A DNA stretch of 40,153 bases from Elusimicrobiota bacterium (GTDB lineage Bacteria; Elusimicrobiota; Elusimicrobia; UBA1565; UBA9628): assembly GCA_003151975.1 (NCBI GenBank), contig PLZD01000037.1:15222-55374 (forward strand), given 5' to 3'. The notes beneath the pieces are model-generated. The model searched no databases. It was not told the DNA's origin and worked only from the letters and a program-made list of their open reading frames with translations. Both the position numbers and the translations under genes were made by a program. Positions within the stretch are counted from its first letter, which is position 1, and each line of letters starts with the position of its first letter. Of the stretch, positions 3,102-35,957 are shown piece by piece.

Positions 3102-3515
3102 TCATTTCTTTTGTTCCGTCGCGATCGTCAGGCTCAAAGCGCCCGCATCCTTGGCCTTGGCCATGAGATCGGTCAGGCGTCCGTTCAAAGCGTTTTCGTC
3201 GGCCCGGAGAATGACGATTTTTCTATCGCTCTGCGCCAGACGGATCTTGAGATCGTCCTCGAGCATCGCGAGATCCTTATAAATTTTCGCATCAAGGGCG
3301 ACGTCTCCATTCGCGCCCAAAGTCAGCGTCAGCTTATCGGCCTCCTCGCCCTTTTCGGCGTGGGCCTTGGGCAAGGTCACCTTGATGACGGGGTCCGACA
3401 TGAGGGGCGCGGTCACCATGAAGATGATGACGAGCACGAGGCAGACGTCGACGAGCGGCGTGACGTTGATGCCCGCCACGATGTCGTCGTCGTCTTGGCC
3501 CGCGTCCATCGCCAT
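3102..3515 (-). CDS. exbD: ExbD/TolR biopolymer transport protein, copy 2
   Basis: A 137-residue ExbD/TolR protein: a short cytoplasmic start, a single membrane helix at about residues 19-38 (NVTPLVDVCLVLVIIFMV) carrying the proton-path aspartate Asp23, then a periplasmic domain. Length and layout are typical. It begins 1 bp after the other exbD ends, so translation is probably coupled. The two copies share the membrane helix almost exactly but differ in the periplasmic part, so they are more likely to form a heteromeric pair than a redundant duplicate. ATG 3515 is the only sensible start. Confidence 0.93.
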   Translation of the reverse strand: MAMDAGQDDDDIVAGINVTPLVDVCLVLVIIFMVTAPLMSDPVIKVTLPKAHAEKGEEADKLTLTLGANGDVALDAKIYKDLAMLEDDLKIRLAQSDRKIVILRADENALNGRLTDLMAKAKDAGALSLTIATEQKK

Positions 3516-10055: not shown

Positions 10056-12557
10056 TCAGGCGGCCTTCACGGGGGTGTCCTCGATGGCGGCGAGCGCGCG
10101 GTACATCTCCTTGGCCGAAGGATAGCGCTGGGCCGGATCCGCGTTGAGGACCTTGGCGAAGAACGGCTGCAGGGCTGCCGAAGCGTCGGGGTTGGCGCGC
10201 TTGATCGGAATGAATTCGCCCTTGAGCTTTTTCTCGAGCATCCCCGCGCCCGAAAACGGCCGCTGGCCGACGACGAGCTCGTAGATCATCACGCCGAGCG
10301 CGTAGAGATCCGACTCCTTGCGCACGGTCCCCATCTCCTGCTCGGGCGCCATGTACGGAGGAGTCCCCCACGCCTGCGTCACCGTCGCGTCGCCGCCGTG
10401 AGTCTCGTGCGCGATGCCGAAGTCGAGGACCTTATAATGGCCGTCGGCGGTCATCATGATGTTCGCGGGCTTGAGGTCGCGGTGAATGATGTTCTGGGAG
10501 TGCGCGTAGTCGACGGCGCCTGCCACCTCGCTCATGATCTGCTTGATCTCGGCGAGCGGAAGCTTTATTTTTCGACGCAGCCGCTCGTGCAGCGTTTCGC
10601 CTTTGACGAACTCGAAGACGAGATAAAGCTCGCCGTCGCCGACGACCGAGAAAATCTGCGCGAGGTTCGGGTGCGAGAGCTTGGCGGCAAGCTGCGCTTC
10701 CTTCAAAAATTTCTCGCGGACCAAAGCCGACTCGTACGCGGCCTTATTGAGGTTCTTGATGGCCACGGTGCGCTTGAGCGTGACATCGGTGGCTTGATAA
10801 ACGATGCCGATGCCGCCGCGCGCGAGTTCCCGCTCGATGCGATAAGTCCCGGCGAGCATCGTTCCCGGCGCGAGAGTTCCACTGCTGGCCGGCGGCTGAG
10901 AGTCGGGGCTTGCCGCCGGCGGCGGCGTGATCCCGCCTCCGCGCGCGACTCGGCGCAGTCCGGCAAGGATGAAGGCCGCCGCCGGAAGCCCCAGCAGAAC
11001 CAGAACGGAAAGTCCGGGAAGCCGGGAACGCGGCGATTGCGCGGTCGCTGAGCCGCCGGCAAGGCGCGCGAGGGCCTCATCGACCAGCGGCTTGAGCACC
11101 AAGTCGAGGACCGCTGCGGCCTTGTAGTCGGCGACGGCCTCCGCGACGCGGCCAAGCTTCTCGAGAGCCATCGCGCGGTAGAATCGCCCTAGGCCGCTCT
11201 CTCCCCCGACGGACAAAGCCTTCTCGACGTCGGCCAGGCCGAGTTGATAGTTGCCGAGCTGGACCTGCGCGTAGCCGCGCTCAAGAAGGGCGTCGGCGTC
11301 CTCGGGCTTGAGCCGAAGCGCCTCGTCGGCGGAAATCTTCGCGGCCTCGTAATTCTTGAGCCGGTTGGAGATCGCGGCGCTCAAGGCCAGCGCGCGGACA
11401 TTGGTCTTGTCCGCGGCCACGGCCCGCGTGACGTCGAGCAGCGCGCCCGTGGGGTCGCCCATGCGCAGCTTGCCGCGCGCGCTCTCGGCCAGAGACTGCG
11501 AGAGCATCGCGGTCGGAGTCATTACCCCTGATGGCGCGGCCTTGGAGCCCGAGGCCTCCTGAAGTCCCGCGTCCGCTCGCCCAATGATCCCGCCGCCGAG
11601 GCCGCCGAGATCGCGCTTCGCGCCGAAATCAAGCGAAGGCAAAGGCTTGGCGACGATGTGGCGTTTGGTGGACTCGGCGTACGCCTTGATGCGCTGGGCG
11701 AGTTCGTTGTTCGCGTCGCGCGAAAGCGCCGCGTCGGCGTCCTTGGCGGCCTCGTCGATGCGGCCCTCGCCGGCGCGCTGGTAGGCGCGCAATCCCAGCG
11801 CCTCGGGATTTCCTTTGTCGCGGGCCAGCACCTGCTCGACGGCCGCCGACGCCTGCTTCTGGTCGCCCTCCTTCATGTACTGCCGGGCCGTTTCCGTCAC
11901 GACGTGATAGTCTCCGCCGGCCAGCGCCTCAGTGATGAGCGGCGCGCGGTATTCGGGCCGCACCGGGAAATCCGGCTCTTGAGCGGCCTTCTTGTCCCGG
12001 ACCGTGGGCTCATGGTGCGGGCCCGCGCCCGCCGTGCCGTGGCCCGGCTTTTCCAAGGCCGCCGGGACATTTGCGATAACAGCACCCAGCAAGCCCTGGT
12101 TGCTGGACTTATCCAAAGTCACCGTCGCATCGGCCGTCGTGTGTACTTCCGAGGGCGGCGTGGTCAATGACCGCTGCAGGTCGTCGAGTTGCCTCGCGAC
12201 GATGGCCGCCTCGCTGGTCGCATGAAATCCAGGCTCGGCGTTGGCCAGCGTCGTCGATTCCGGGCTTCGGTCCGGAGTCGTCGTATCCTTGTTTCCCACA
12301 ATTATGGGCTTTAAGTCCGGGAAGAGTCCTCCCGTCTTCGGCTTGAGGTCCAGGAAACTGTTTTCCGGCTTCGCCTTGGGGACCGCAGCCCGGACCTTGT
12401 CGCATTCCGCGCGCAGAGCGGTGACGGCGGGCAGACAATCGGCGGGAGGCGTCGCGTCATTACACCGAAGCGAAAGGTCGTAGTAGGACTTCATGTTGCA
12501 ATCGGCCCCCGCGGCCGAAGCGGGCAACAGGATGAGCGCCAGAAACAGAGCCTTCAC
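10056..12557 (-). CDS. TPR sensor / Ser-Thr protein kinase (second of two)
   Basis: An 833-residue membrane receptor kinase with reversed layout compared with PknB: signal peptide (MKALFLALILLPASAAG), periplasmic region with a low-complexity part and TPRs (about 205-490), one membrane helix (about 513-533, LSVLVLLGLPAAAFILAGL), then a cytoplasmic Hanks-type kinase domain (about 571-825). The kinase keeps the Gly loop (ARGGIGIVY), ATP-binding Lys601 (VAIK), HRDLKPAN with catalytic Asp694, DFG with Asp712, and the MAPEQ motif. The start is GTG 12557, overlapping the previous stop as GTGA. The kinase half is nearly the same as that of the upstream neighbour while the periplasmic half differs, which points to duplication followed by sensor divergence. 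Catalysis is strongly supported; ligand and targets are unknown. Confidence 0.92.
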   Translation of the reverse strand: MKALFLALILLPASAAGADCNMKSYYDLSLRCNDATPPADCLPAVTALRAECDKVRAAVPKAKPENSFLDLKPKTGGLFPDLKPIIVGNKDTTTPDRSPESTTLANAEPGFHATSEAAIVARQLDDLQRSLTTPPSEVHTTADATVTLDKSSNQGLLGAVIANVPAALEKPGHGTAGAGPHHEPTVRDKKAAQEPDFPVRPEYRAPLITEALAGGDYHVVTETARQYMKEGDQKQASAAVEQVLARDKGNPEALGLRAYQRAGEGRIDEAAKDADAALSRDANNELAQRIKAYAESTKRHIVAKPLPSLDFGAKRDLGGLGGGIIGRADAGLQEASGSKAAPSGVMTPTAMLSQSLAESARGKLRMGDPTGALLDVTRAVAADKTNVRALALSAAISNRLKNYEAAKISADEALRLKPEDADALLERGYAQVQLGNYQLGLADVEKALSVGGESGLGRFYRAMALEKLGRVAEAVADYKAAAVLDLVLKPLVDEALARLAGGSATAQSPRSRLPGLSVLVLLGLPAAAFILAGLRRVARGGGITPPPAASPDSQPPASSGTLAPGTMLAGTYRIERELARGGIGIVYQATDVTLKRTVAIKNLNKAAYESALVREKFLKEAQLAAKLSHPNLAQIFSVVGDGELYLVFEFVKGETLHERLRRKIKLPLAEIKQIMSEVAGAVDYAHSQNIIHRDLKPANIMMTADGHYKVLDFGIAHETHGGDATVTQAWGTPPYMAPEQEMGTVRKESDLYALGVMIYELVVGQRPFSGAGMLEKKLKGEFIPIKRANPDASAALQPFFAKVLNADPAQRYPSAKEMYRALAAIEDTPVKAA

Positions 12558-14887
12558 GCGGCCCTCACGGGCGTGTCCTCAATGGCCGCCAGCGCGCGGT
12601 ACATCTCTTGGGCCGACGAGTAGCGCTTCGAAGGATCCGCGCTGAGAACCTTCACGAAGAACGGCTGAAGGGCGGCCGAGGCGTCGGGATTGGCGCGCTT
12701 GATCGGGATGAATTCCCCGTGCAGTTTTTTCTCGAGCATTCCCGCGCCGTCGAAAGGGCGCTGGCCGACGACGAGCTCGTAGAGCATCACGCCGAGCGCG
12801 TAGAGATCCGACTCCTTGCGCACGGTCCCCATCTCCTGCTCGGGGGCCATATACGGCGGCGTGCCCCAGGCCTGCGTCATCGTGACGTCGGACATATTGC
12901 GCGTCTCGTGGGCGATGCCGAAGTCGAGGACCTTGTAGTGGCCGTCGGCGGTCATCATGATGTTGGCGGGCTTGAGATCACGGTGGATGATGTTGTGCGC
13001 GTGAGCGTAGTCCACCGCCTCGGCCACCTCGCGCATGATCTGTTTGATCTCGGCGAGCGGCAGCTTGATCTTGCGCGAAAGACGCTGGTGGAGCGTCTCG
13101 CCCTCGACAAACTCAAAGACGAGGTAGAGCTCGCCGTCGCCGACCACGGAAAAGATCTGCGCGAGGTTCGGGTGCGAGAGCTTGGCCGCGAGTTGGGCCT
13201 CTTTCAAGAATTTCTCGCGCACCGCGGCCGACTCGTAGGCCTCGCGGTTGAGATGCTTGACGGCGACCGTGCGCTTGAGCGTGACGTCGGTCGCCTGATA
13301 GACGATGCCGATGCCGCCGCGCGCCAGCTCCCGCTCGATGCGGAAAGTCCCGGCGAGCATCGCGCCGGGTGCCAGCGTTCCCGTCGCCGGACGCTCAACG
13401 TCGGGCTTGGCTACGGCGGTCGTTTTCCAGTCCTTGTAAAGCACGCGCTTGGCGCCTTCGAAAATCAAGGCGAAGGCCGTCAGCCCGAGCAGGGTCAAGA
13501 GGATCGGCTTGAGCGGGACCGAGCGCGGCAGACGGCCGTGCGGCGCCGCCGTGCTGATGAGTCGCGCCAGCGCCTCGTCGACGAGAGGCTTAAGCGCGGG
13601 ATCGAGCGCGGCCGCGCGCTGGTACTCCTCGATGGCCTTCGCGAAAAGGCCCGTCCTCTCGAGCGCCATCGCGTGATAGAGCCGCCCCATGCCCGAGTTC
13701 GGATCGAGCGCCAAGCCGTCTTCGATGTCGCGCAGGGCGTCGGCGGTCTTTCCGAGTTGAAGCTCCGCGTAGCCTTTCTCGAAAAGGGCGGCCGCGTTTT
13801 TCGGATCGAGCTTCAACGCCTCCTCGGCGTCCTTCTTGGCCGCCCCGTAGTTGTGGATGTCCGCGAGGTTCGAAATGTGGGCGCGCAGCACGCGCGCACG
13901 CGCGTTGCCCGGATCGTTGAGCAAGGCGCGCGACAGGTCGAACAGCGCGCCTTTGACGTCGCCGAGCGAGAGCTTTTGCAGCGCCGACTGGATGAGCGCC
14001 TGCGCCTTGTCTTTGGGCGCCGCGTCGAGACCGATGCCGGCCGCGGAGGCCGCCAGCGCCGTCGCGGCCTTCTGACGCGCGGCGGGATCGGACGCGCTGC
14101 GCAGATCGACGGCGCCCTTGTCCGCGGCTTTCTGATCGAATGGGTTCTTGAGCCCGCCGAGCTTGCTCCGCGCCTGAATCAGTTCGTCGGGATGGCCGAG
14201 GATCATGCGGGCCAAATCGTTCTTCGGATCTAGCGCGAGCGCGCGCTTGGCCGCGTCCTGCGCGCCCGCCGTGTCGCCCGAGAGCAGCCGCGCCGCCGAG
14301 AGATCGGTCAGCACTTGGGCGTTGCCGGGCTCTTGCTGTGCCTGGACGCTCAGTGTCTGCGCCGCGACCGTGGGATTTTCCAGCACTTGCGGCGAAACTT
14401 GAAGCTGCGGACCCGGCGGGGATTGATTCTGGGAAACCTCGGGCTGAACATTGTTATTGGCATTTTCGGTGTCCGGCGTCGCCGGCTTCACCTCGGGACC
14501 GTGCTCCAATTCTCCGGTCAGGACGCCGTACTCTTTAGCGTAGTCGCCTAGCGTCTTGCCGGTGGGCTTGCCTCCCAAACCAGTCACATGCTCGGAAATA
14601 AAATCCGGATGCGTCTCCGCGACGTTATTGTAGATCAGTTGAGCCGTGTCGAGATCGCCGCGGGATTTCGCCGACAACATCATCAACTTGCAGAGGTTCG
14701 CGTCCTCGCATTCGTATTCGGCCGGCGTGTAGGATTTCCCGTTGTAGACGATCACTCCCTCCTGGGAAACGGGAACTTTCGGGCACCCTCCCGGCTTCGA
14801 GGCGCAGTCCGGCTGGCCAACCGCCAGCGCCGCGGCCGGAGGCAGAAGCGCGGCGAACGCTAGCAAAAGATGAGTCTTTCTTTTCAT
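12554..14887 (-). CDS. TPR sensor / Ser-Thr protein kinase (first of two)
   Basis: A 777-residue paralogue of the next gene: signal peptide (MKRKTHLLLAFAALLPPAAALA), a Cys-containing periplasmic start (QPDCASKPGGC), TPRs to about 450, a membrane helix at about 458-478 (ILLTLLGLTAFALIF), and a C-terminal cytoplasmic kinase domain (about 515-770). Lys544 (VAVK), catalytic Asp637 in HRDLKPAN and Asp655 of DFG are present, so it should be active. ATG 14887 is chosen because it overlaps the upstream stop as ATGA and begins a clean signal peptide; the longer reading frame adds 12 residues inside the upstream gene. It is cotranscribed with the kinase-less TPR gene before it and the kinase after it. 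Role in envelope sensing is inferred from topology. Confidence 0.92.
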   Translation of the reverse strand: MKRKTHLLLAFAALLPPAAALAVGQPDCASKPGGCPKVPVSQEGVIVYNGKSYTPAEYECEDANLCKLMMLSAKSRGDLDTAQLIYNNVAETHPDFISEHVTGLGGKPTGKTLGDYAKEYGVLTGELEHGPEVKPATPDTENANNNVQPEVSQNQSPPGPQLQVSPQVLENPTVAAQTLSVQAQQEPGNAQVLTDLSAARLLSGDTAGAQDAAKRALALDPKNDLARMILGHPDELIQARSKLGGLKNPFDQKAADKGAVDLRSASDPAARQKAATALAASAAGIGLDAAPKDKAQALIQSALQKLSLGDVKGALFDLSRALLNDPGNARARVLRAHISNLADIHNYGAAKKDAEEALKLDPKNAAALFEKGYAELQLGKTADALRDIEDGLALDPNSGMGRLYHAMALERTGLFAKAIEEYQRAAALDPALKPLVDEALARLISTAAPHGRLPRSVPLKPILLTLLGLTAFALIFEGAKRVLYKDWKTTAVAKPDVERPATGTLAPGAMLAGTFRIERELARGGIGIVYQATDVTLKRTVAVKHLNREAYESAAVREKFLKEAQLAAKLSHPNLAQIFSVVGDGELYLVFEFVEGETLHQRLSRKIKLPLAEIKQIMREVAEAVDYAHAHNIIHRDLKPANIMMTADGHYKVLDFGIAHETRNMSDVTMTQAWGTPPYMAPEQEMGTVRKESDLYALGVMLYELVVGQRPFDGAGMLEKKLHGEFIPIKRANPDASAALQPFFVKVLSADPSKRYSSAQEMYRALAAIEDTPVRAA

Positions 14888-16302
14888 CGGACGGGAGTCG
14901 GCGGCGTGGTCGGCGTCGCCCATTCGGGTTTAACGGCGCGCTTGACGCCCTTAAACAGAAGCGCCAAGGCCGCGAGCAGCGCCGCGCCCCACAGCGACAG
15001 CTTCGGCCAGGACATCGGCGCGGAACGGCCGGCTTTGCCCGGCGCTCCGGCCCTCACGCCGAGGCGCGTCAACGCGTCTTCGATGAGCGGCTTGAGCCCC
15101 GAGTCGAGCTCGGCCGCTTTCAGATAGGAGGCGACGGCATCCTTGGCGCGGTCAAGCTTCTCGAGGATCATGCCTTTGTAAAAATAGCCCATCGCGTTGA
15201 GAGGATCGAGCGCCAGCGCTTTCTCGACGTCGACGAGCGCGTCTTGATACTGCCCAAGCTGGTACTTGCCGTAGCCGCGCTCAAGCAGGGCCGCGACATT
15301 GGAGGGATCGAGCCTGAGCGCCTCATCGGCGTCCTTGACGGCCTCGGCGGGCTTGCCCATCTGATTCCAGATCATGGCGCGCAGCGCCCACGCCTTGGGG
15401 TTCTTGGAGTCGGCCGAAATCGCGCGGCTCGCCCGGTCGAGGGCGCCGGTGAGATCGCGCATTCGCAATTTCGACTCGGCTTCCTGCAGAAAGCCGGCCG
15501 CGGGGCTTTGCACCGTGATCACGATCTGGCTCCGCGACGCGGAGCCGGACGCCGAAGGGTGCGCCGTTTGGCTTCTGAGGTCGCCGAGATTTTTCCCTCC
15601 TCCCGCAGACGAACCTCCGTCGCGCGCCGCGCCGAAATCCGGGGACTTCAGCGCACGCTTGATCGCGGCGTCGCCCATGCCCTTATTCCCATCGAGGATA
15701 AGGTGCGCGAGCTGGTTTCCCGAATCGATCGAAAGCAAGGTCCGCGCGTCGTCGGCCGCGGCGCCTTTGTCTCCCGAAACGAATTCGGCCTGGGCGCGCA
15801 GCTGCAGCGCCTCGACATTCTTGGGATCGCTCGCGAGCGCCTTGTTGGCCGCCGCGATGGCGGACTTCGTATCGCCGGCTTGAAGGGCCGTCTTGCCTTG
15901 CAGCAAAGTGTCCTGAACCGGAGCTGGATTGTCGTCCCCCGCTCCGGGGTCCGCGCCGCCCCCCGGGCCGCCCACGCCGCCCACGCCGGGCTTCCCGGTA
16001 ATCTCGGGGACGTCCTGGGCCGGGGCGCCCGCCGGAGTATGGCTTTCCGGAATCTTCAGGAGGTTATTGAGCCTTTCCGCGATCGCTTCCTTGTCTTTTT
16101 GACTTCCTTTTCCATCAAGCTTCTTCTTACATCTCTCGATCGTCTTCCCCAATCTCTGGACGCACAACGCAGAGTTGGGATCGGCGCACACCTGCTGCGT
16201 GTAATCGGCGCCGCTGCCGTCGCAATCGGGGTTGTTGTTGTCGTGCGGCCAAGCGCGCGCCGAGAGTGGAACGAACATGATCAAAGCCAGCAAAGTCCTC
16301 AT
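14884..16302 (-). CDS. secreted TPR membrane protein, kinase-less sibling of the two kinases
   Basis: A 472-residue protein with a signal peptide (MRTLLALIMFVPLSARA), a Cys-containing start (NPDCDGSGADYTQQVC), a Gly/Pro-rich linker, TPRs (about 150-420) and one membrane helix near the end (about 432-451, LSLWGAALLAALALLFKGV) followed by a short cytoplasmic tail. Its TPRs closely resemble the sensor halves of the two following kinases (for example DEALRLDPSNVAALLERGYGKYQLGQYQ), but the kinase domain is missing; the frame ends cleanly with no kinase remnant. ATG 16302 is chosen: a TAAACT box lies 7 bases upstream and no Shine-Dalgarno is seen, as in other leaderless-looking genes here. Inference: a partner or competitor of the kinases. 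Confidence 0.85.
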   Translation of the reverse strand: MRTLLALIMFVPLSARAWPHDNNNPDCDGSGADYTQQVCADPNSALCVQRLGKTIERCKKKLDGKGSQKDKEAIAERLNNLLKIPESHTPAGAPAQDVPEITGKPGVGGVGGPGGGADPGAGDDNPAPVQDTLLQGKTALQAGDTKSAIAAANKALASDPKNVEALQLRAQAEFVSGDKGAAADDARTLLSIDSGNQLAHLILDGNKGMGDAAIKRALKSPDFGAARDGGSSAGGGKNLGDLRSQTAHPSASGSASRSQIVITVQSPAAGFLQEAESKLRMRDLTGALDRASRAISADSKNPKAWALRAMIWNQMGKPAEAVKDADEALRLDPSNVAALLERGYGKYQLGQYQDALVDVEKALALDPLNAMGYFYKGMILEKLDRAKDAVASYLKAAELDSGLKPLIEDALTRLGVRAGAPGKAGRSAPMSWPKLSLWGAALLAALALLFKGVKRAVKPEWATPTTPPTPVR

Positions 16303-22074: not shown

Positions 22075-23457
22075 ATGAACGCGCCCGGAACGGTGAAGGT
22101 GACGGCCGAGCGCCTCGCGCCCGAGGGAGAGGCCATAGCCCGCGCGGCCGGCTCGCCGCGCGTGATCTTCGTCCCCTACGCCGTGCCGGGAGACAAGCTC
22201 GAGATCGACGTGGTCGAGGCCAAGTCGAGCTTCGCGCGCGGGCGCATACGGAAACTGCTCTCGCCCGGCCCGGACCGTGTCGAGCCTCGCTGCAGCCATC
22301 ATTTCACGCCGTCAGGCTCGGCGCCCGCTTGCGGCGGCTGCGACTGGCAGCAGTTCTCCTACGAGTCCCAGCTCAAATACAAGACCGAACTCGTGCGCGA
22401 TTGCCTCTCGCGCATCGGCAAGATGAACCAAGTCTCCATTTCCACGACCTTGGCCTCGCCGCAGCCGTGGGGCTACCGCAACAAGGTCCAAATCCCGTTC
22501 GGCCTCAAAGGCAGCCGCGTCGTCGCGGGCTTCTACGCGCCCGGCTCGCACACCATCGTCGATTTCAAGGAATGCCCCGTCCAACCCGACTTGTCGGTGC
22601 GCATCGCGCTCAAGGTCAAGCAGCTGGCTCAGGACTACCGCTGGCCCATATATGAGGAAGACGCCGGCCGCGGCTGGCTGCGGCACCTCTTCGTGCGCAC
22701 CAACGCCGCGGGCCAGGCCCTGGCCGCCTTGGTGACCAAGACCTCGGACTTCCCCCGGCGCGACGAATTTATCGCGGCCATGCGCGAGGCATTTCCCGAG
22801 ATCATCGGACTCCACCACAACGTCCAATCGATGAAGACCTCCGTCGTGCTCGGCCCGCATTGGAAGGCGCTCTGGGGCGCCCGCGCGATCGAAGAAAAAG
22901 TCGGGCGGCTGCGTTTTCTCGTCTCGCCGGGGGCGTTTCTGCAGGTCAACACGGGAGCCGCGGAGGTCCTCTACGACACGGCGCTCGACGCCGCGACCAA
23001 CGGCGGCGCCCCCTTCAAGCAAGCTCTCGACCTTTATTGTGGGGCTGGCACGCTGACGCTGTGGCTGGCCGGCGCCTTCCCGCGCGTGCACGGCGTGGAA
23101 GAGAACCACGACGCGGTCAAGGACGCCTGGAAGAACGCCGAGCTCAACGGGATCAAGAACGTGCGCTTCTCCGCGGGCCGCGCCGAGGCCGTGCTTCCGC
23201 GCATCAAGTCCGAGCTTTCCGGGCCCTGCGTCGCCGTCGTCGATCCGCCGCGCATGGGCCTGAGCCAATCGGTCCTGCGCCTGTTGACGGGGCCCGCGTT
23301 CAAGCGCCTGGTCTACGTGTCCTGCAACCCGGCAACCTTCGCCCGCGACGCGGGACTGCTCTGCCGCGCGGGCTACGAGCTGTCCGGAGTTCAGCCCGTG
23401 GACCTCTTCCCGCAGACCTCCCACGTCGAGCTCGTGGGCCTCTTCGACCGCCCCTGA
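22075..23457 (+). CDS. rlmD: RNA m5U methyltransferase, RumA/TrmA family (23S rRNA type)
   Basis: A 460-residue SAM-dependent uracil-C5 methyltransferase. It begins with a TRAM-like RNA-binding segment (about 1-65). A [4Fe-4S] site is formed by Cys73, Cys86 and Cys89 (CGGC) with Cys167 (KECPVQ) as fourth ligand. The SAM site is LDLYCGAGTLTLWLAG and the proline-rich loop is DPPRMGL. The nucleophile is Cys417 in YVSCNPATFARD. The FeS cluster fits RlmD/RumA-type proteins (m5U in 23S rRNA); in lineages that duplicated the family, target U747 or tRNA U54 is also possible. The start ATG 22075 is preceded by a -10-like box, not by a ribosome site; the frame is open far upstream but without methyltransferase character. 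Confidence 0.92.
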   Translation: MNAPGTVKVTAERLAPEGEAIARAAGSPRVIFVPYAVPGDKLEIDVVEAKSSFARGRIRKLLSPGPDRVEPRCSHHFTPSGSAPACGGCDWQQFSYESQLKYKTELVRDCLSRIGKMNQVSISTTLASPQPWGYRNKVQIPFGLKGSRVVAGFYAPGSHTIVDFKECPVQPDLSVRIALKVKQLAQDYRWPIYEEDAGRGWLRHLFVRTNAAGQALAALVTKTSDFPRRDEFIAAMREAFPEIIGLHHNVQSMKTSVVLGPHWKALWGARAIEEKVGRLRFLVSPGAFLQVNTGAAEVLYDTALDAATNGGAPFKQALDLYCGAGTLTLWLAGAFPRVHGVEENHDAVKDAWKNAELNGIKNVRFSAGRAEAVLPRIKSELSGPCVAVVDPPRMGLSQSVLRLLTGPAFKRLVYVSCNPATFARDAGLLCRAGYELSGVQPVDLFPQTSHVELVGLFDRP

Positions 23458-23471
23458 TAATAGCCTTGACA

Positions 23472-23494
23472 GCGCAAGGATTTACCCCTTGCGC
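23472..23494 (+). terminator. hairpin after the methyltransferase gene
   Basis: GCGCAAGG and CCTTGCGC form an 8-bp stem around a 7-base loop, 14 bp after the stop. The following bases are GATTTC, so the T tract is weak. It may be a terminator; its distal arm overlaps the proposed -35 of the next operon. Confidence 0.4.
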
Positions 23495-23553: not shown

Positions 23554-24858
23554 ATGAACCGATATGTCCCGACCTTGGCCCTGGCGGCCGCTTGTGCCCT
23601 GCTGATCCCTGCCGCGCCCTCATTCGCCGAAGATCCAAAACCGTCGAACCGCACGCCGGAGCTGCAGGAGCCAGCTTCCAATTGGATCCGGCTCATCTCG
23701 GTGCCCGCGAGCCCGGGCTCGGTCGGCGCGGACAAGCCCTTCGTGCCGATGGCGTATTGGTGCCATAAAAGCGACTGCGACATGCGCACGCCGGGAACGG
23801 GCAAGAATCGTGTTGATTACAGTGAAGGCTCCACTTCCCGCAGCGGCATCCCGGTCTACACGCTCATCCCGAAGAAGTCCGAAGGCGTGAACCTGCCGTA
23901 TTTCCGCGCGGTCCCCGCCCCTTGGGGCGTGGAATCATCGGCGTTCACTTACGGCGGAGACTTGGTCCGTTTCTTCGCGTACGGAAAGAGCGGCTTCTGG
24001 AGCGGCGGCGCCAACCTCTGGGTCTCCGACCTGAAGATCGACAAGGACGCCAAGCTTGCCGACGGCGAGGTCGTCGTCGACAACGACGAGCAGCGCGAGA
24101 CCGGCAAGCCTCTTCCCTTGGGCTTCGCCGAGGACGGCGCCGCCTGCACGCCGGCGGGCTTCGATCAATACTACGGAACCGCTTGGGGTCCCGACCAGAA
24201 GAACGTCGACATTTTCTTCCTGCCGGTCGAGTTCGAGATGGAAAAAGCCCAGCTCTCCGCCGGCGGCCACACGGCGCGGATCCATTCGGGAAATTACAAC
24301 GGCCAGCCCTTCAGCGTGATGGCCGACAGCGTCAAGGACGGCAAGAACATGCTCTTCGCCGACCGCTTCGTCAAAGCGATGCGGCCCGAGCTGCGCGCGA
24401 CCGCGCAGGCCTACGTCAACCAAAACGGCGGGGACGCCGACGCATTCACGGTGTTCGAGGCGCGCTTCCTGCATTGCCGCTTGGGCTTTGCGGGCGCCGC
24501 CAACGACTTCATGGCCAAAGCCGCGGCCGCTTCGGGCAACCCAAACCAGTTCGTGGCCTCGTGGCGCGAATTCATCAAGGGCGAGTTCCGGCACTATCTC
24601 AACGACCAGTTCGCTCCTCCGGCCCCCCTGGAGGATTGGCAGAGCTACGACCCCAAGCCCGTCTGGGAAGAGATGGTTTCCCGCTCCAAGGATTGGCTCA
24701 ACACGGGCAAGATCTCGACGCCCGCGCCCCCGCCTCAGGTCAAGCAGGAAAGCAAGCCGGAGACGAAATCTCAGGCCGTCGTGCCGCCTCCCGCCCGCCA
24801 TCTCGAGTCGAAGAAGATCGAAGACGCCGAAAAAAATCTGCTCGACATCATGAAGTGA
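23554..24858 (+). CDS. secreted protein of unrecognised family, paralogue 1
   Basis: I do not recognise this gene. It encodes 434 residues with a signal peptide ending near PSFAE (about residue 25). A cysteine motif WCHKSDCD (Cys70, Cys75) is followed by a beta-rich middle part. Residues 200-230 read QYYGTAWGPDQKNVDIFFLP then VEFEM. A helical region carries FEARFLHCRLGF (Cys308) and WREFIKGEFRHYL, and the last 60 residues are Pro/Lys-rich and charged. The two genes downstream share the WCxxxDCD motif (gene 2) and the FxAxFLxCR...WRxF...E...Y region (both). The start is set by GGAG 7 bases upstream. It is probably periplasmic; no enzymatic motif is evident. Confidence 0.8.
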   Translation: MNRYVPTLALAAACALLIPAAPSFAEDPKPSNRTPELQEPASNWIRLISVPASPGSVGADKPFVPMAYWCHKSDCDMRTPGTGKNRVDYSEGSTSRSGIPVYTLIPKKSEGVNLPYFRAVPAPWGVESSAFTYGGDLVRFFAYGKSGFWSGGANLWVSDLKIDKDAKLADGEVVVDNDEQRETGKPLPLGFAEDGAACTPAGFDQYYGTAWGPDQKNVDIFFLPVEFEMEKAQLSAGGHTARIHSGNYNGQPFSVMADSVKDGKNMLFADRFVKAMRPELRATAQAYVNQNGGDADAFTVFEARFLHCRLGFAGAANDFMAKAAAASGNPNQFVASWREFIKGEFRHYLNDQFAPPAPLEDWQSYDPKPVWEEMVSRSKDWLNTGKISTPAPPPQVKQESKPETKSQAVVPPPARHLESKKIEDAEKNLLDIMK

Positions 24859-24859
24859 T

Positions 24860-25942
24860 ATGAGACTCCTTCTAGCCTTGCTGGCGATGTCTTCCGCGGC
24901 GTCGGCCCGAGCCTGGAGCGCCGACGAGCTCGCCGTCGAGCCCGGCGTGCCCCCCGCGGTCACCGCAGGATGGAACGCAGAGCCGGGCCCCGGCTCGGCG
25001 TGGGACAAGTATTACTTCCGCACGGAAATGGGAGAAGAGCGCACGATCTGGTGCCGGCACAAGGACTGCGACACGGCGCTTCAGAAGGAAGATTTTCAAA
25101 GCCACGTTCCTCTCTATTATCTCGCTCCCGCCGGGACCGGCCGTTGGCAGGCGATCCTCTCGGCGTACACGATGCATTGGGAGCCGTACAAGAAAGGGGG
25201 CCTCAGCGAAGTGATCTCGCGCGCCGGCACGCCCCTGGCGATCCGGCCGTGGCGGCCCTCGAAGAAGGGCGACGCGTGGGACCTCGACGGCGCCGCGTCG
25301 GTCCTCGCGCCCGCAAGCCGCGAGATCGTACCGCCCCAAGCCGCGCTCTTCGTGGAGGCCGGCGGCTGGCCCGCCTGCTTGAGCCTGGATCCCGCCGCTT
25401 ACGAAGGCTCGCCGTGGGCCATCAAGAAGCTCCACCCCGCGGAGATCGAGATCGCGGAGGCCTCCGCGGCCCCCGGGACCGAGGACGAATTGCGCGCGCG
25501 CCTCAAGCTGTTGGCCTCGCATCCCGACGCCGGGGCGCTGACGACCGTCCATCAAATGCGCACGGAGGCCACAGCCGCGGCGGAGGCCGAGCTCAACGCC
25601 AAGGCTCCCGCGGGGCGCTTCAACCGCCTCGAGGCTCGGTTCTTGGCGTGCCGGGTGCAGCGCTACGACCGGTTCAATGCCTTTCAGACGGAGCTCGCGC
25701 GCCTCGACGAGCCGGCGGGATTTATCGCCAAGTGGCGGCAGTTCGTGCGCTCCGAGATGAGCGATTACATGCAGGAGACCGGCGACTATCAGAGCGGCTT
25801 GATCCTGGCCGGCCGCCGCACCGTGGCGGCGCTCGACGGCCGCGTGCCGGCCCTGGCGCAGGGACCGCAAAGCCGCCCCCACCCGCAGGAAATGGGCGAG
25901 GCCGCCGAGCGCATCTCGTACATTTTGGAGCAAGTGAAATGA
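24860..25942 (+). CDS. secreted protein of unrecognised family, paralogue 2
   Basis: No known family is recognised. It encodes 360 residues with a short signal peptide (MRLLLALLAMSSAASARA). The motif WCRHKDCD (Cys65, Cys70) matches the WCxxxDCD of paralogue 1 with the same CX4C spacing. A later HPAEIEIAEAS segment lines up with LPVEFEMEKA of paralogue 1. The shared helical block is LEARFLACRVQ (Cys264) followed by FIAKWRQFVRSEMSDYM. It starts 1 bp after the previous stop with no clear ribosome site, so translation is probably coupled. Shorter than its siblings, it lacks both the charged tail of 1 and the membrane end of 3. Confidence 0.8.
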   Translation: MRLLLALLAMSSAASARAWSADELAVEPGVPPAVTAGWNAEPGPGSAWDKYYFRTEMGEERTIWCRHKDCDTALQKEDFQSHVPLYYLAPAGTGRWQAILSAYTMHWEPYKKGGLSEVISRAGTPLAIRPWRPSKKGDAWDLDGAASVLAPASREIVPPQAALFVEAGGWPACLSLDPAAYEGSPWAIKKLHPAEIEIAEASAAPGTEDELRARLKLLASHPDAGALTTVHQMRTEATAAAEAELNAKAPAGRFNRLEARFLACRVQRYDRFNAFQTELARLDEPAGFIAKWRQFVRSEMSDYMQETGDYQSGLILAGRRTVAALDGRVPALAQGPQSRPHPQEMGEAAERISYILEQVK

Positions 25943-26018
25943 ACCTGGGTCTAAAGGCCTACTCGGCGCTGGGGCCATCGGCACTGCCTTCCGTCGGCCG
26001 CGAGGGCTACCCTTCCTT

Positions 26019-27743
26019 ATGATGAGTTCGCGCCTGGGATCGTTGATTCTGATTTTGGCGGCCGCGCTTCCCGTGCGGGCGGCGGACTCGCCTTTCAAGA
26101 CGGCCGGCGACCCCAATCCCGATTGCGCTCAGGACTTCCTCTTGACCGAGTACTACGCGGGCCCCAACGCGTCCACCAAGGGCATCTTCAGCTGGTGGCA
26201 TCCCGTCGAGATCGAACTCGTGCGCGGCATGAAGCGCCCGGACGATTACACGGATTTCAGCGCCCCGCTCAAGGCGCAGGTCCTCGACGGGAAAAGCGAT
26301 ATCAACGTGAAACTCGGCGTACTCCGAAAGCTCGAGGAGTCCAAAGCCGCCGACGCGGACAAGGACAAAAGCGCGTCCGACTTCGCCCAAAATACTTTGC
26401 GGCCTAAAATGCTCGCCGCGGCCAAGGCCATGCCTCCCAGCAAGGGCGCCTCCGATCAATTCTCCGGATTTGAAGCTCCGTTCCTGCGCTGCCGCATGCG
26501 CTACGTCGGCAGAGACGACGCGTTCGCCGCGCTGACGCAAACCGCGGTCGCGTCAAACAAGACCGCCGAGTTTGTCGCCTACTGGCGCGGCTTCGTCCGC
26601 GGAGAGATCTCGATCTACGCCGCCGAGGGCGCTGCGCTTGGCGCCGCCAAGCCCGACTCCAAGAAGCTGTATGCGGCCTTCGTCGAACGGACGAGGAAAG
26701 CTCTCGGGACGAGCCCCGGCGCGACGTCGCCCGCCGCGGAGACCAAGCCGCCTATCAAGGACGATTTCCGGGACGGCCTTGTGAAAGTCCCACCCGACGC
26801 GCCGACCTCGCTGACCCAGCACGAGTACGACTTGCTTTGGCACGGCGACGCCCGCCACCCCGAAGAGCAGGCGCAATATGTCGCGCGCTTGAAGAAGGCC
26901 CTCGCGCTCGCGCCGACCGGCGCCACCGATGCCCAGGCCTTGGAATCGCAGAAGGCGATCAAAGCCGTCGTCTCCGAGTACCGCGCGCAGGTCGTCACGC
27001 GCGACCCCGACACGAACCTCAGCCTCGAGGAGCTCGCCACTTTCGGCGCCAACTCGAAAAAGGTCTACGACGAGATCAAGGGGCTCTCAGGCGACGCGCG
27101 CAAGGCCAAGGTCACCGAGTACCGCGCCCAGATCGCCAAGCTCGATCCCGCGATGAACCTCAAGCCCGAGGAGCTCGCCGCCTTCGGTCCCCAGGCGGCC
27201 ACCTCCAAACAAGCCGAGATCGACGCGCTCTCGGGCGACGCGCGCAAGGCCAAGGTCGCCCAGCTGCGCCAGATCGCGCAGCGCTGGCAGGCGCGCTCGG
27301 GGTCCAGCGGCGGCTCCACGATCCCGCTCGATCAACTCAAAGCCGCCGAGGCGGCCAACGGCGATCTCTCCGCGCTCGACCAGATTTTCAACGGCAACCG
27401 GAGCGGCGGGGACGCGGTCGACGGCTTGACGGGTCCCGGCGGCGGCAAGACCGCCCAGCAGATTTCCGACGAGCTCAACAAGAAGCCCAACGACCAGCCC
27501 CCGACCAAGGCTACCAACTCCGAGCCGCCGAAGCCCGGCGAAGACAAGGTCGCGTCCTCGGATGACGGCGGAAAGACTTGGAAAAAGGACGTTCCCAATC
27601 TCGCCTCGGGCGCCCGGTGGGGAATTTTCGCCATGGCGCTCGGCATGTTCTTCGCGGGAGGCGCCGGCGTCCTCCTGTTCGGCGTGGTCGGCTTTATGGC
27701 GGGCTACGGCCTCAGCAAGGTCCAGAAGAGCCTGGGCGACTAG
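26019..27743 (+). CDS. membrane-anchored secreted protein of unrecognised family, paralogue 3
   Basis: A 574-residue protein; the function is not recognised. The signal peptide (LGSLILILAAALPVRA) is followed by a domain shared with paralogues 1 and 2: EYYAGPNASTKGIFSWWHP then VEIEL, and later FEAPFLRCRMRY (Cys158) with FVAYWRGFVRGEISIYA. The WCxxxDCD motif is absent. Residues about 305-425 form three repeats around GLSGDARKAKVTEYRAQI and LEELATFG. Two adjoining hydrophobic segments end the protein (about 535-565, WGIFAMALGMFFAGGAG and VLLFGVVGFMAGYGLSKV), so it is probably anchored in the inner membrane. ATG 26019 and 26022 are both possible. It lies 76 bp after paralogue 2, in the same direction. 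Confidence 0.8.
   Translation: MMSSRLGSLILILAAALPVRAADSPFKTAGDPNPDCAQDFLLTEYYAGPNASTKGIFSWWHPVEIELVRGMKRPDDYTDFSAPLKAQVLDGKSDINVKLGVLRKLEESKAADADKDKSASDFAQNTLRPKMLAAAKAMPPSKGASDQFSGFEAPFLRCRMRYVGRDDAFAALTQTAVASNKTAEFVAYWRGFVRGEISIYAAEGAALGAAKPDSKKLYAAFVERTRKALGTSPGATSPAAETKPPIKDDFRDGLVKVPPDAPTSLTQHEYDLLWHGDARHPEEQAQYVARLKKALALAPTGATDAQALESQKAIKAVVSEYRAQVVTRDPDTNLSLEELATFGANSKKVYDEIKGLSGDARKAKVTEYRAQIAKLDPAMNLKPEELAAFGPQAATSKQAEIDALSGDARKAKVAQLRQIAQRWQARSGSSGGSTIPLDQLKAAEAANGDLSALDQIFNGNRSGGDAVDGLTGPGGGKTAQQISDELNKKPNDQPPTKATNSEPPKPGEDKVASSDDGGKTWKKDVPNLASGARWGIFAMALGMFFAGGAGVLLFGVVGFMAGYGLSKVQKSLGD
27071..27256 (+). repeat. intragenic tandem repeat in paralogue 3
   Basis: About 30 bp starting with CTCTCAGGCGACGCGCGCAA near 27085 recurs almost exactly near 27229 (one base differs in this stretch). 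The spacing of 144 bp corresponds to 48 residues, so a recent in-frame duplication is likely; a third, more diverged unit lies just upstream. Confidence 0.7.
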
Positions 27744-27793: not shown

Positions 27794-28252
27794 CTAGTCG
27801 CGCTTCTTTTCCTGACGGTCCTCGACGGTCATCCCCCACGCCAGCAGGCACGCCCCGATCGACACGCAGGAATCCGCGACGTTGAAGACCGGCCAGATCC
27901 GGAAATCGAGGAAGTCCACGACGTAGCCGTAGGCCACGCGGTCGTAGAGATTGCCCACCGCGCCTCCCGCGACGAGCACCAGCCCCGCCTGGAGCCAGAA
28001 GTTCTTGCGCGTCCAGCGTCCCTGAAGGATGAGCAGGACGGCGAGCAGGACCGAAGATAGCCAGATGAAAAAGCGGTTGCGCGAGAAGCCGATGCCGAAC
28101 GCCGCGCCCGTGTTCTCGACATAGGTAAGGTAGAAGAACGGCAGCACGCGCACGCTGCCCCGGACCATGAGCCAAGTCGCGGCCCAATGTTTGGCTAGGC
28201 GGTCCAAAAGAAAAATCGCCGTCATCGCGCCGACGCGCATGGCCGGCCTCAT
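27794..28252 (-). CDS. lspA: lipoprotein signal peptidase (signal peptidase II)
   Basis: An inner-membrane aspartyl protease that removes signal peptides from diacylglyceryl-modified prolipoproteins. It has 152 residues, four predicted membrane helices, the conserved NTGAAFG loop (47-53), GNLYDR (100-105), catalytic Asp113 in YVVDFLDF and Asp127 in FNVADS. The start ATG 28252 overlaps the ileS stop as ATGA, a common ileS-lspA arrangement. It would process the lipoprotein protease encoded at 21232-22044. Confidence 0.95.
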
Positions 28253-31050
28253 CCGACGGCGGCCGCGCAGCGCCCGCAGAGCTCGGCGTGTTTAGAAGAA
28301 GAGCCGATGTCCGTCTGGTAGCGCCAGCAGCGCGGGCACTTCGCGCCGGAAGCGGCGCTCACTTCCACCTTCAAGGCTCCGGCCGCCGCGACGTCCTCGA
28401 CTTCGGAGACGAGCAGGACCTCGGCCCACGGCACGGGCGCTCCGCCGATGGTCGCGCCCTTCAAGCTCACCTTCGCCTGAAGCGAGCTGCCGATCTTCTT
28501 GGCGGTCCGCGCCTCTTCCAATGTTTTTTGGACGACGGCCCGGACCTTCAGTATGTTTTCCCAACGCGCGGCCAGCGCCGGATCCTTCCACTTCTCGTCG
28601 AGCGCGGGGAGATCGGCGAGAAACACGCTCTCTCCCTGGCCCCACCGTTGGGGCCCCGCCTCCCAGCCTTCTTCGGCGGTAAACGAGAGAATCGGAGCGG
28701 CCAGCAGAAGCAGGCGCGTGAGGCACTCGGACATGACGGTCTGCGCCGCGCGGCGCTCGGGCGCGTCGGGCCGGAACGTGTAGAGCCGGTCCTTGAGCAC
28801 GTCGCAGTAGAACGAAGACAATTCGAGGCCGCAGAAATCGAGCAAGCGCCGCGCCGCCGAGCGGAAACGATAGTGCTCGTAGTCCTCGATCATGCCTTTC
28901 TGCAGGTCGTAGAGCTTGCCGAGCAAGAAGCGCTCCATCTCGGGAAGCTTCTCGAACGGGACCGCGTCTTTTTTCGGATTAAAATCAAAAGTGTTGCCGA
29001 GCAGGTAGCGCGCCGTGTTGCGGAACTGGCGGTAGGCGGTGGCGGGCACTTCCATGAGCTTGTCGGAGATGCGCACGTCGTCGGAGTAATCGGACAGGGC
29101 CACCCATAAACGAAGGACATCCGCACCGTACTTCTCGAGCATCAGTTGCGGCGCCACCACATTGCCGGAGGATTTGTGCATCGCGCGGCCTTGCTGGTCG
29201 AGCACGAAGCCGTGGGTCAGCACGGACTTGTAGGGCGCCTTGCCGGTCAGGGCGACGGCGAGCACCAGCGAGCTCTGGAACCAGCCGCGGTGCTGGTCGG
29301 AGCCTTCAAGATACAAATCGCAGGGCGAGTGCTCCTCGCCGAGAACGGACAGCCACGACGCGCCGGAGTCGACCCAGACGTCGAGAATGTCTTCCTCGCG
29401 GCGGAACTCCGTGCCGCGGCATTTCGGGCAGTGCAAATCCTTCGGCAAAAAGTCCCAGGTCTTGGTCGTGACGGTCTTTCCCCAATCCGTGAACCAGAAG
29501 CCGTCGCCGTCCTTGGCGACTTTTTCCTCGATGGCTTTGAGCGCCGCGTCGTCTTTGATCGGCGTGTTGTCGGCGGCGCAGAACAAAACGGGAATCGGCG
29601 TGCCCCACACGCGCTGGCGCGACAAGCACCAGTCCGGGCGGCCGGAGACCATCGCCGAGATGCGGGTTTGCCCCACCTCGGGAATCCAGTTCACGCCGCC
29701 GATCGCGCAGAGCAATTTTTCGCGCAGGCCCTCGAAGGCGACGTTCAAGAACCACTGCTCGGTCGCGCGGAACACGATAGGATTCTTGCAGCGCCAGCAA
29801 TGCGGATAGCTGTGCGAAATTTTTTCTTCCGCCAAAAGCTGGCCGCGTTCTTTCAAGGCGGCGATGACCGCCGGGTTGCCTTCCTCGAAAACATGCAAGC
29901 CCTTGAAATCGGGAGCCTCGTCGGTGAAGCGTCCTGAAACGTCGACGGGGCACAAGGCCTGCAGCTCGTATTTCAGACCCGTGTGGAAGTCGTCGGCGCC
30001 GTGGCCGGGCGCCGTGTGCACGACGCCCGTGCCGTCTTCGGCGGTCACATAATCGGCCAGCACGCCGATGCCCTCGGTTTTGCCGAAGGGCCGCTCGTAG
30101 CTGAAATCGAAATTGCGGCGTCCCGCCGGGCTTGCCGCGGCCAAGTCCTTGCCGCGGAAAGTCTTGAGCACCTTGTGGGATTTAGCGCCGATGACTTTCA
30201 TGACGGCTTCAAGCCGGGATTCCGCGAGCAAGAAAACGCGCGCCTTCGGCTCGAGCTCGGCCTCGACGGCGACATACTTCAACTCGGGATGGAAAGCGAC
30301 GGCCATGTTCGCGGGCAAGGTCCACGGCGTCGTCGTCCAGACCAGCACCTCGATGCCGGCCAGATCCACGGGCCGCTTGATCGGCAAAGCAACGTACACC
30401 GACGGAGAATTCTTGTCCTTGTACTCGACCTCGGCTTCCGCGAGCGCCGACTCGCAAGTGATGCACCAGTAAACGGGCTTGAGGCCGCGATAGATGAAGC
30501 CTTCCTTGAACAGGCGGCGGAAAGCCGAAAGGACTTTCGACTCGTACTCGCGCGACATCGTCTTATAGGGCTTGCTCCAGTCCCCGAGACCGCCGAGCCG
30601 CTTGAACTCCGCGCGCTGAGTCTCGATCCAGCGCTCGGCGAACGCTTCGGCTTGCACGCGGAACGCGGCGATGTCCTTGATTCCGCGCTTGCTCATCTTA
30701 AGTTCCTTGAGCAGAGCGGTCTCGATGGGCAAACCATGACAGTCCCAGCCCGGCGTGTAGGGCGTCGAGAAACCCATGAGCGCGCGGGATTTGACGACCA
30801 TGTCCTTCAAAGTTTTGTTGAGCGCGTGGCCGATGTGGATGTTGCCGTTGGCGTAGGGCGGGCCGTCGTGCAGGACGAATTCCTTGCGGCCCTTCTGGCG
30901 CTCGCGCATCTGGCCGTAAAGGTCCATCGCTTCCCAGGCCTTGAGCCGCACGGGCTCGCGCTGGGCCAAGTCGCCCTTCATCGGGAACTCGGTCTGCGGC
31001 AGATTGAGCGTCTTGGAATAGTCGGGTTTGTCTTCGGCTTGCGTGCTCAT
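28249..31050 (-). CDS. ileS: isoleucyl-tRNA synthetase
   Basis: Class I synthetase of 933 residues that charges tRNA-Ile and edits valine. The HIGH motif is present (HIGH, residues 72-75), as are the CP1 editing domain, the segment WVDSGASW, and a C-terminal zinc finger (CPRCW then CGRC). The KMSKS loop reads AMHKSSGN: the last lysine (Lys626) is kept but the first is Ala. ATG 31050 is chosen because an extended -10 box (TGATAAGAT) lies 10 nt upstream and overlaps the alternative ATG 31062; no ribosome site is seen for either. It is followed by lspA with a 4-base overlap. Confidence 0.96.
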
Positions 31051-34508: not shown

Positions 34509-35957
34509 ATGGTTACCATCCGAATCGCTTCTATGCGCTCCGCCGCGATCATCTTTCTGACGCTCGCGGCGCTGGTCGTGTTGCCGAGCCGCAAGGCGCA
34601 CGCTGCTGCAGGTTTTGGCGTCACATTGGTCTCCCCGAACAGCGGCTCGGGCGCGGGCGGCACGAGCGTGACGATCACCGGGAATGCCTTTCAAACGGAC
34701 AATGTATGCGCAGGAGGCACGCTCGTGCCTGGTTCGACTTCCCTCAGCTTCGGCGCCAACGCCGGGACCTCGGTCAGCGTCAACAGCAACACCTCCATCA
34801 GCGCGACCTCTCCGGCCGGCAGCGGCACCGTCGACATTACGGTGTCCCACAATTGCCAGGTCGGCGGCGCTCTACGGACTACCCCGATCGTTCTCGCCGA
34901 CAAGTTCACCTACATACCGGTTCCGGGGGGTTCCGGACCGACCGCAAGCCAGAACGTGCGCACGCTGCAGGCCGCCGCGGCCATGTCGGCGGCGGCCATC
35001 TCCGGCCAGCTGATGACCGGGGCGGTCCAAGGCGGGATCGAGCAGGCGTTCAGCGGCGGCGGGCCGGCGATCGCCGCCGCGCCCAACGGGCTGTCCCTGC
35101 ATTTCGCCGGCCTGCCGCAGGACGCGCTGCTCTATGCGAGCGCCGCCGACATGGTCTTCAGCACGCCGCCGCCCGCCCCGCCGATGGCCGGGCGCTGGAG
35201 CGCATGGGCCGACCTGCGCGGCACGGGCTTTGACGTGAACGCCGACGGCAACCAGGTGCGGCAGGTCAACGTCACGGGCGGCGTCGGCCGCAAGCTTAAC
35301 GAGCATCTGCTGGTCGGCCTCTTCACCGCCTACGAGAGCTTCACCGTCACCATGGAGTCGCTCGCGGGAAGACTGACCGGCCGCGGCGTCACCATCGGCG
35401 CTTATGCCGCGGCGCGCGTCGTCGACCATTGGCGCGTCGACGGCCTGGCCGGCTGGTCGGACATGTTCTACGACAGCGTCGCCGGCGGCGCTGCGGGCGC
35501 GTATGGCGGCTCGCGCTGGCTCGGCTCCGGCGGATTTACCGGGACCTACGACTACTCCGGCGTTATGCTGGAACCCTCCGCGCATCTCGATACGCAATGG
35601 GAGCGAGACGACGTCTGGATCGATTCGCTGGGCAATACGCAGGGTGAGAACAGCTTCTCGGCAAGCCGCGTCACCGCCGGCGGCAAAAGCCTCTATTCGC
35701 TGCAGGCCTCATCCAATTTCAGCGTCGCGCCTTATGTCGGGGTCTATACCGACTACCGCTTCTCATCCTCCAACGCGCTGCCGACCGGGGGCTCGTTTGT
35801 CGGCATCAAGAACGGCTGGTCGGCGCGCGTGGCACCCGGCGTGACCTTCACGCACGGCCGCAATGGTCCCTCGCTGATGCTCGGCGGAGAGCTCGCCGGC
35901 CTCGGCACCGGCTACGAAATTCCGAGCATCGAAGCGCGCGTGATTTGGCCGTTCTGA
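34509..35957 (+). CDS. IPT/TIG plus autotransporter beta-barrel protein
   Basis: A 482-residue surface protein. A signal peptide (to about residue 32, RKAHA) precedes one IPT/TIG domain (about 37-135: VTLVSPNSGSGAGGTSVTIT, ending DKFTYIPVPG). An Ala-rich helix follows (about 145-185), and then an autotransporter-type beta-barrel (about 205-482) with alternating aromatic strands and the typical last residue Phe in ARVIWPF. The style is that of short autotransporters of Alphaproteobacteria such as Rhizobiales. The neighbours are not related, and it converges with the TPR gene with 4 bp between stops. Inference: acquired by lateral transfer; probable adhesin or surface-exposed protein. Confidence 0.82.
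   Translation: MVTIRIASMRSAAIIFLTLAALVVLPSRKAHAAAGFGVTLVSPNSGSGAGGTSVTITGNAFQTDNVCAGGTLVPGSTSLSFGANAGTSVSVNSNTSISATSPAGSGTVDITVSHNCQVGGALRTTPIVLADKFTYIPVPGGSGPTASQNVRTLQAAAAMSAAAISGQLMTGAVQGGIEQAFSGGGPAIAAAPNGLSLHFAGLPQDALLYASAADMVFSTPPPAPPMAGRWSAWADLRGTGFDVNADGNQVRQVNVTGGVGRKLNEHLLVGLFTAYESFTVTMESLAGRLTGRGVTIGAYAAARVVDHWRVDGLAGWSDMFYDSVAGGAAGAYGGSRWLGSGGFTGTYDYSGVMLEPSAHLDTQWERDDVWIDSLGNTQGENSFSASRVTAGGKSLYSLQASSNFSVAPYVGVYTDYRFSSSNALPTGGSFVGIKNGWSARVAPGVTFTHGRNGPSLMLGGELAGLGTGYEIPSIEARVIWPF

Follow-up and report, generated by a model that had tools for sequence, protein, structure and literature searches.

A glycine-zipper-tailed family of predicted envelope proteins with variable fronts at the rlmD–lspA–ileS locus of one order of Elusimicrobiota

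A 40,153-nucleotide stretch of an Elusimicrobiota genome (contig PLZD01000037.1, positions 15,222 to 55,374; hereafter the window) carries three consecutive plus-strand genes, numbered 1 to 3, between an rlmD-like methyltransferase gene and two opposite-strand genes that we take to be lspA and ileS from knowledge of such sequences. The question raised by this locus is to which family the three products belong and what such proteins might do. A sequence-only reading had described them as secreted paralogues which define an unrecognised family by a shared helical block, and had proposed that they are subunits of one envelope complex. Our analyses place the trio within a family specific to one order and marked by a C-terminal glycine-zipper tail. 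With a probability of about one half, we read its members as exported envelope proteins, anchored and oligomerising through the zipper and equipped with exchangeable heads, a function predicted from sequence.

The three open reading frames were recovered at the positions given in Table 1, separated by 1 base (genes 1 and 2) and 76 bases (genes 2 and 3). Codon-usage scores, trained on undoubted genes of the window, returned clearly coding values of 0.30–0.38 per codon, with a guanine plus cytosine (GC) content at third codon positions of 0.83–0.86. The overlapping reading frames scored negative, thus ruling out artefactual or overlapping frames as the source of the trio. Pairwise BLASTP comparisons confirmed the homology, with E 8e-10 for genes 1 and 2 (25% identity over 291 columns), E 4e-14 for genes 1 and 3 (29% over 231 columns) and E 4e-10 for genes 2 and 3 (39% over 77 columns). 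As had been noticed before, the alignment showed the block FxxxEAxFLxCR...WRxFxxxExxxY in all three proteins, with Cys308, Cys264 and Cys158 respectively, a PxExE segment in which PVEFE, PAEIE and PVEIE of genes 1, 2 and 3 are aligned with each other, and a WCxxxDCD motif in genes 1 and 2 only. The N-termini are short, mostly hydrophobic and of the signal-peptide type as judged by eye, and we consider the trio to be real, coding relatives with exported-looking products. A fourth paralogue of 413 aa, bearing both the N-terminal domain (N-domain) and the block, is encoded on contig C31 of the same genome. Outside this genome the block cysteine is not kept, and in an eight-sequence alignment including foreign homologues the invariant block positions were E, R, R and Y only.

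Sequence searches indicated that the family is new to Pfam, NCBIfam, PADLOC and the PDB sequences. No match above the curated cut-off in Pfam or NCBIfam, whether to the block, the N-domain or elsewhere, was obtained for genes 1–3, for the C31 copy or for the syntenic relatives scanned (up to nine); PADLOC returned no match for the trio, the C31 copy or the relatives scanned, and a nine-sequence profile found nothing among PDB sequences. FlgM, EAD7 and BNR were discarded as domains of gene 3, their matches being below cut-off and falling in repeats or linker. The family profiles were run over Elusimicrobiota genomes and, beyond the phylum, over phage and plasmid collections; gene 1 found no match in the former collection and gene 3 none in the latter, and a phage or plasmid origin of the family was rejected on these grounds.

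The most widespread element of the family is the C-terminal tail of the gene 3 type. At the sequence level, the tail alignment describes a hydrophobic helix with GxxxG-type glycine spacing and three invariant glycines. The tails of some relatives showed a sub-threshold likeness to Pfam glycine zippers (best E 0.002–0.005), the window's own tail gave no match to them at E 1, and the best full-protein score of 16.8 bits missed the cut-off for membership (28.9 bits for YMGG). Over the phylum, the tail profile matched 36 of 341 genomes at E 1e-6, all of them in the window's order, while 20 listed members of the order and all 285 genomes outside it did not reach this threshold. Tails mostly occur once or twice per genome, and at most five times at E 0.01. 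The helical block occurred in nine genomes, each belonging to the window's family, and the N-domain in 15, namely 14 within the order and a marginal one (E 0.002) elsewhere in the phylum.

The position of the tailed genes is conserved. Throughout the order, rlmD is followed by one to three genes for exported-looking proteins and then by lspA-ileS on the opposite strand; the locus proteins measure 105 to 942 aa and have a signal-peptide-like N-terminus and, in most cases, a glycine-rich hydrophobic hairpin at the C-terminus. This synteny was found in three families of the order. An rlmD orthologue is present in most relatives and, where it has been relocated or the contig breaks off, lspA or ileS remains next to the tailed gene. 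When a profile of 18 tails was used with a threshold of E 1e-8, the tail adjoined rlmD and/or lspA-ileS in 25 of 25 matching genomes, the window genome included; genome G033 has one additional short tail fragment without placement relative to the locus. Gene 3 is the syntenic counterpart of these order-wide tailed proteins. Three tailed genes stand in tandem in genome G039, and block-bearing tandem copies were seen in the window genome only.

Profile searches connected the proteins of different genomes. When run over 373 proteins, a tail profile built without the window recovered the gene 3 tail (E 6.7e-5). The four copies in the window genome gave a block profile that found a syntenic protein at locus L014 (E 7e-5), and a block profile made of foreign proteins alone found gene 1 (E 1.2e-6). 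A profile of the N-domains present in genes 1 and 2 and in the C31 copy found a syntenic protein at locus L033 (E 1.5e-8) and, iterated over 765 neighbourhood proteins, it retrieved 17 proteins, all of which are locus proteins or paralogues from this genome. Since the profiles from the window genome were built without synteny, the synteny is independent support for the kinship. Genes 1, 2 and the C31 copy thus belong to the family through N-domain and block, the tail being absent, whereas gene 3 has the tail.

The expectation of an unrecognised family with conserved synteny in a single lineage was borne out by these data. The definition of the family had to be changed, as tail and locus define it and the trio is a local elaboration. 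It had also been suggested that gene 3 lost the WCxxxDCD motif and gained repeats and a membrane end; the motif is indeed absent and both the repeats and the membrane end are present, but the tail being the most widespread element, gene 3 probably kept this end rather than gaining it.

The modules are combined differently in different genomes. In L069 (942 aa), L080 and L081, N-domain, block and tail lie within a single protein, while in the window they are split, with N-domain and block in genes 1 and 2 and block, repeats and tail in gene 3. The simplest reading of these sequences is that the trio arose from a composite ancestor by local duplication and complementary loss. Moreover, the nine genomes compared have tandem pairs of one long and one short tailed gene (673 and 142, 942 and 148, or 603 and 174 aa, for example), with 42–76% identity between the two tails, an arrangement compatible with the proposal of subunits of one envelope complex. 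Comparison of the block with the 40-residue repeat by hhalign gave a probability of 31% and P 5e-4, and the repeat profile matched the block of L015 at E 4e-4; that the block is a variant of the repeat is only suggestive. Among 24 RlmI regions checked, only five genomes (four from genus g12, one from family f2) had a protein with a similar tail at a second site, flanked by nitroreductase and RlmI-like methyltransferase genes; the window genome has none there. Four of these five proteins (Table 1) carry the N-domain or two blocks. A lone N-domain protein of 139 aa lies beside a lipocalin (L204, 4248-4667), and the N-domain also opens a 1,144-aa protein without Pfam match (L202, 3773-7207). The modules thus extend beyond the main locus. 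Both family sites adjoin a gene of the 23S rRNA methyltransferase type, perhaps by coincidence.

Table 1. Features of the trio, its conserved neighbours and the tailed proteins of the second site. Positions refer to the window, or to the named locus for the second site.
Feature	Position	Strand	Description
rlmD-like 23S rRNA methyltransferase	22075..23457	+	conserved upstream neighbour
Gene 1	23554..24858	+	434 aa; tailless; signal-peptide-like start, then WCxxxDCD N-domain, PVEFE segment and helical block, with a Pro-rich end
Gene 1 N-domain	23665..23997	+	residues 38-148; iterated profile
Gene 1 helical block	24445..24606	+	residues 298-351; profile and alignment; modelled helices, pLDDT about 80
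Gene 2	24860..25942	+	360 aa; architecture as gene 1; no tail
Gene 2 N-domain	24968..25231	+	residues 37-124; iterated profile
Gene 2 helical block	25619..25777	+	residues 254-306; profile and alignment
Gene 3	26019..27743	+	574 aa; lacks the N-domain; signal-peptide-like start, then PVEIE segment and helical block, a pair of repeats and the glycine-zipper tail
Gene 3 helical block	26460..26627	+	residues 148-203; profile and alignment
Gene 3 two tandem helical repeats of about 40 residues	27015..27287	+	residues 333-374 and 380-423; syntenic proteins have related repeats
Gene 3 C-terminal glycine-zipper hairpin tail	27606..27740	+	residues 530-574; tail profile and alignment
lspA (signal peptidase II), presumed	27794..28240	-	conserved convergent neighbour
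ileS (isoleucyl-tRNA synthetase), presumed	28249..31050	-	conserved neighbour
Second-site tailed protein, L199	4848-7736		
Second-site tailed protein, L200	2868-5042		
Second-site tailed protein, L201	3517-4878		
Second-site tailed protein, L203	4685-6364		
Second-site tailed protein, L207	5353-6573		

Among close relatives, conservation of the protein body falls far short of that of the tail and the neighbouring genes. In genomes G028 and G030, protein identity amounts to 96% for RlmD, 90% for IleS and 89% for the tail, and drops to 41% for the body. At the DNA level the two loci are 92.8% identical up to position 1544, which covers rlmD and the first 70 or so bases of the gene, encoding the signal peptide. 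Positions 1545-2215 (671 bases of one genome, 1,232 of the other) show no match; about 550 bases with 74% identity and a second stretch without match follow, and from position 3316 on, in the interval that spans the tail, the short gene, lspA and ileS, the identity returns to 89.6%. The G030 front has a relative in G014 (37.5% over the full length) and the G028 front is of the WCxxxDC type seen in L063 and L027, yet RlmD and IleS group G028 with G030. A cassette-like replacement of the front would explain these sequences best, an ancient dimorphism being a possible alternative.

Gene 1, the sole member of the trio modelled in full, was submitted to AlphaFold2 (AF2) with an alignment of nine sequences. 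The model had a mean predicted local distance difference test (pLDDT) score of 55 and was confident only in the helical region around the block (about 80), and the N-domain modelled alone reached a mean of 52. Foldseek found no significant match for the gene 1 model (best E 1.2), and the best VIA-align hit had a Z of 3.7 among tied unrelated folds, with weak helical-bundle rows. The lack of a fold match for this model is not evidence of a new fold.

On the basis of these data we propose the following arrangement for the family. The full-length form would consist of a signal peptide, an N-domain with a conserved cysteine pair (WCxxxDC), at least one helical module (block or 40-residue repeats) and the C-terminal hairpin. 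Glycine-zipper hairpins in other proteins mediate helix packing and oligomerisation, and the hairpin of this family would anchor the protein in the membrane and probably drive its oligomerisation. In several genomes the short tailed product of the adjoining gene would join the long protein as a partner. The region behind the signal peptide diverges very fast and seems swappable as a cassette, tail and flanking genes staying constant, as would be expected if the head met a changing partner such as a surface ligand, a predator or host cell, a phage or a competitor. In the window, the composite ancestor would have duplicated twice and divided its modules, gene 3 keeping the tail and genes 1 and 2 the N-domain; the products of the latter two are probably soluble periplasmic partners. 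A stronger version would make the locus a diversity-generating envelope system, in which heads are exchanged by recombination between relatives on a constant signal peptide and zipper anchor, with a short tailed second subunit, so that cells differ in binding or recognition; we hold this version to be unlikely.

Several points weigh against the envelope reading. The sharp cassette break comes mainly from one pair of genomes, both of them metagenome-assembled, and relaxed constraint on the linkers can likewise yield fast divergence. The order of duplication and loss is tentative, and genes 1 and 2 may each serve a separate function. Furthermore, export and topology were read from the amino acid sequences, and both AF2 models have low overall confidence and no fold match. 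Some of these points would suit a structural or scaffolding envelope protein without any recognition role, whose divergence reflects weak constraint on spacers. The long low-complexity linkers, the extreme spread of lengths and the large share of the body modelled with low AF2 confidence agree with a scaffold, while the retention of cysteine pairs, N-domain and helical modules and the swapping of the front as a sharp-edged block, instead of a drift, argue against it, and we consider it rather unlikely.

The conserved hydrophobic C-terminus behind a variable front is also what might be expected of antagonism factors, in which the zipper hairpin would be a pore-forming or membrane-disrupting warhead and the front would pick the target in a colicin-like or Cdz-like manner. 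Glycine zippers are indeed the active part of CdzC/D (PMC5380434), TelE (PMC10434224) and EsxX (PMC12744356), and two tailed proteins stand in tandem in several genomes. However, the neighbours are rlmD, lspA and ileS throughout, with no conserved immunity-like or dedicated secretion genes at the locus, and killing systems are not usually conserved vertically at a housekeeping locus; the tail is missing from genes 1 and 2, and the PADLOC, phage and plasmid searches gave no match, making this role improbable. The tail might instead be a sorting signal for a dedicated processing or sorting enzyme, with unrelated cargo in front, as it is conserved far better than the part preceding it and the lengths and contents ahead of it are very different. 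Known C-terminal sorting signals sit on many proteins of a genome. The tails studied here, as a rule one or two per genome, are fixed at one locus, and the fronts share N-domain, block and repeats and hence are not unrelated cargo; a sorting signal is the least probable of these explanations.

Some further observations concern the locus and the rest of the window. A perfect hairpin with an 8-bp stem, GCGCAAGG...CCTTGCGC, lies at 23472-23494, between rlmD and gene 1; a promoter and terminator scan found sites no more numerous than chance. In L015 (1422-3410, the same as L057 9422-11410), two further exported-looking genes without recognisable family modules lie between rlmD and the tailed gene. 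The locus is split into several frames in the single-contig genome of L077 (9476-12900, CP096137) and L033, owing to sequencing error or decay; this genome is a long-read assembly from an amoeba culture (PMC9476967). On the minus strand of the window, at 10056-16302, three tandem exported-looking genes encode one TPR protein and two proteins that combine a signal-peptide-like start and TPR repeats with a Ser/Thr kinase domain at the C-terminus (Pfam Pkinase, E about 1e-52). On the plus strand, a TIG-domain protein that also matches an autotransporter-type beta-barrel is encoded at 34533-35957, and an AAA_21 ATPase gene at 38755-40089, in a stretch of lower GC content (0.54 against about 0.64), was possibly acquired.

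Almost no Elusimicrobiota have been cultured, and descriptions of their envelope proteins are scarce. A protein kept at a housekeeping locus with a replaced front would be a good marker of what these bacteria meet at the cell surface. With rlmD and lspA-ileS as constant flanks, the locus is easily retrieved from any metagenome, and head exchange can thus be checked in populations. Even if the protein were just a loosely constrained scaffold, the family would still be new to databases and explain genes now called hypothetical.

Finally, we compared the family with known systems. In the PDB, helical-bundle folds resemble the block region as modelled, without a significant structural match. PEP-CTERM and MYXO-CTERM-type signals are tails common to many proteins per genome, as opposed to the five at most counted here at E 0.01. 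TelE and EsxX are effectors of the type VII secretion system (PMC10434224, PMC12744356) and, like the tailed proteins, appear as secreted proteins with a C-terminal glycine-zipper end; they are of the LXG type and use another secretion route, whereas the window proteins have no LXG match in Pfam. CdzC and CdzD, cell-surface glycine-zipper proteins of Caulobacter contact-dependent inhibition, act as a pair (PMC5380434). The present family, known from sequence, differs from them in its signal-peptide-like start and in that adjacent immunity and type I secretion genes were not recognised at the locus across the order; glycine zippers and paired occurrence are common to both. The Pfam families PF13441 (Gly-zipper_YMGG), PF13488 (Gly-zipper_Omp) and PF05433 (Rick_17kDa_Anti) share with the tail a short glycine-rich hydrophobic segment of the GxxxG type; in the family described here, scoring below their curated cut-offs, this segment forms the C-terminus of a large modular protein encoded at one constant locus.
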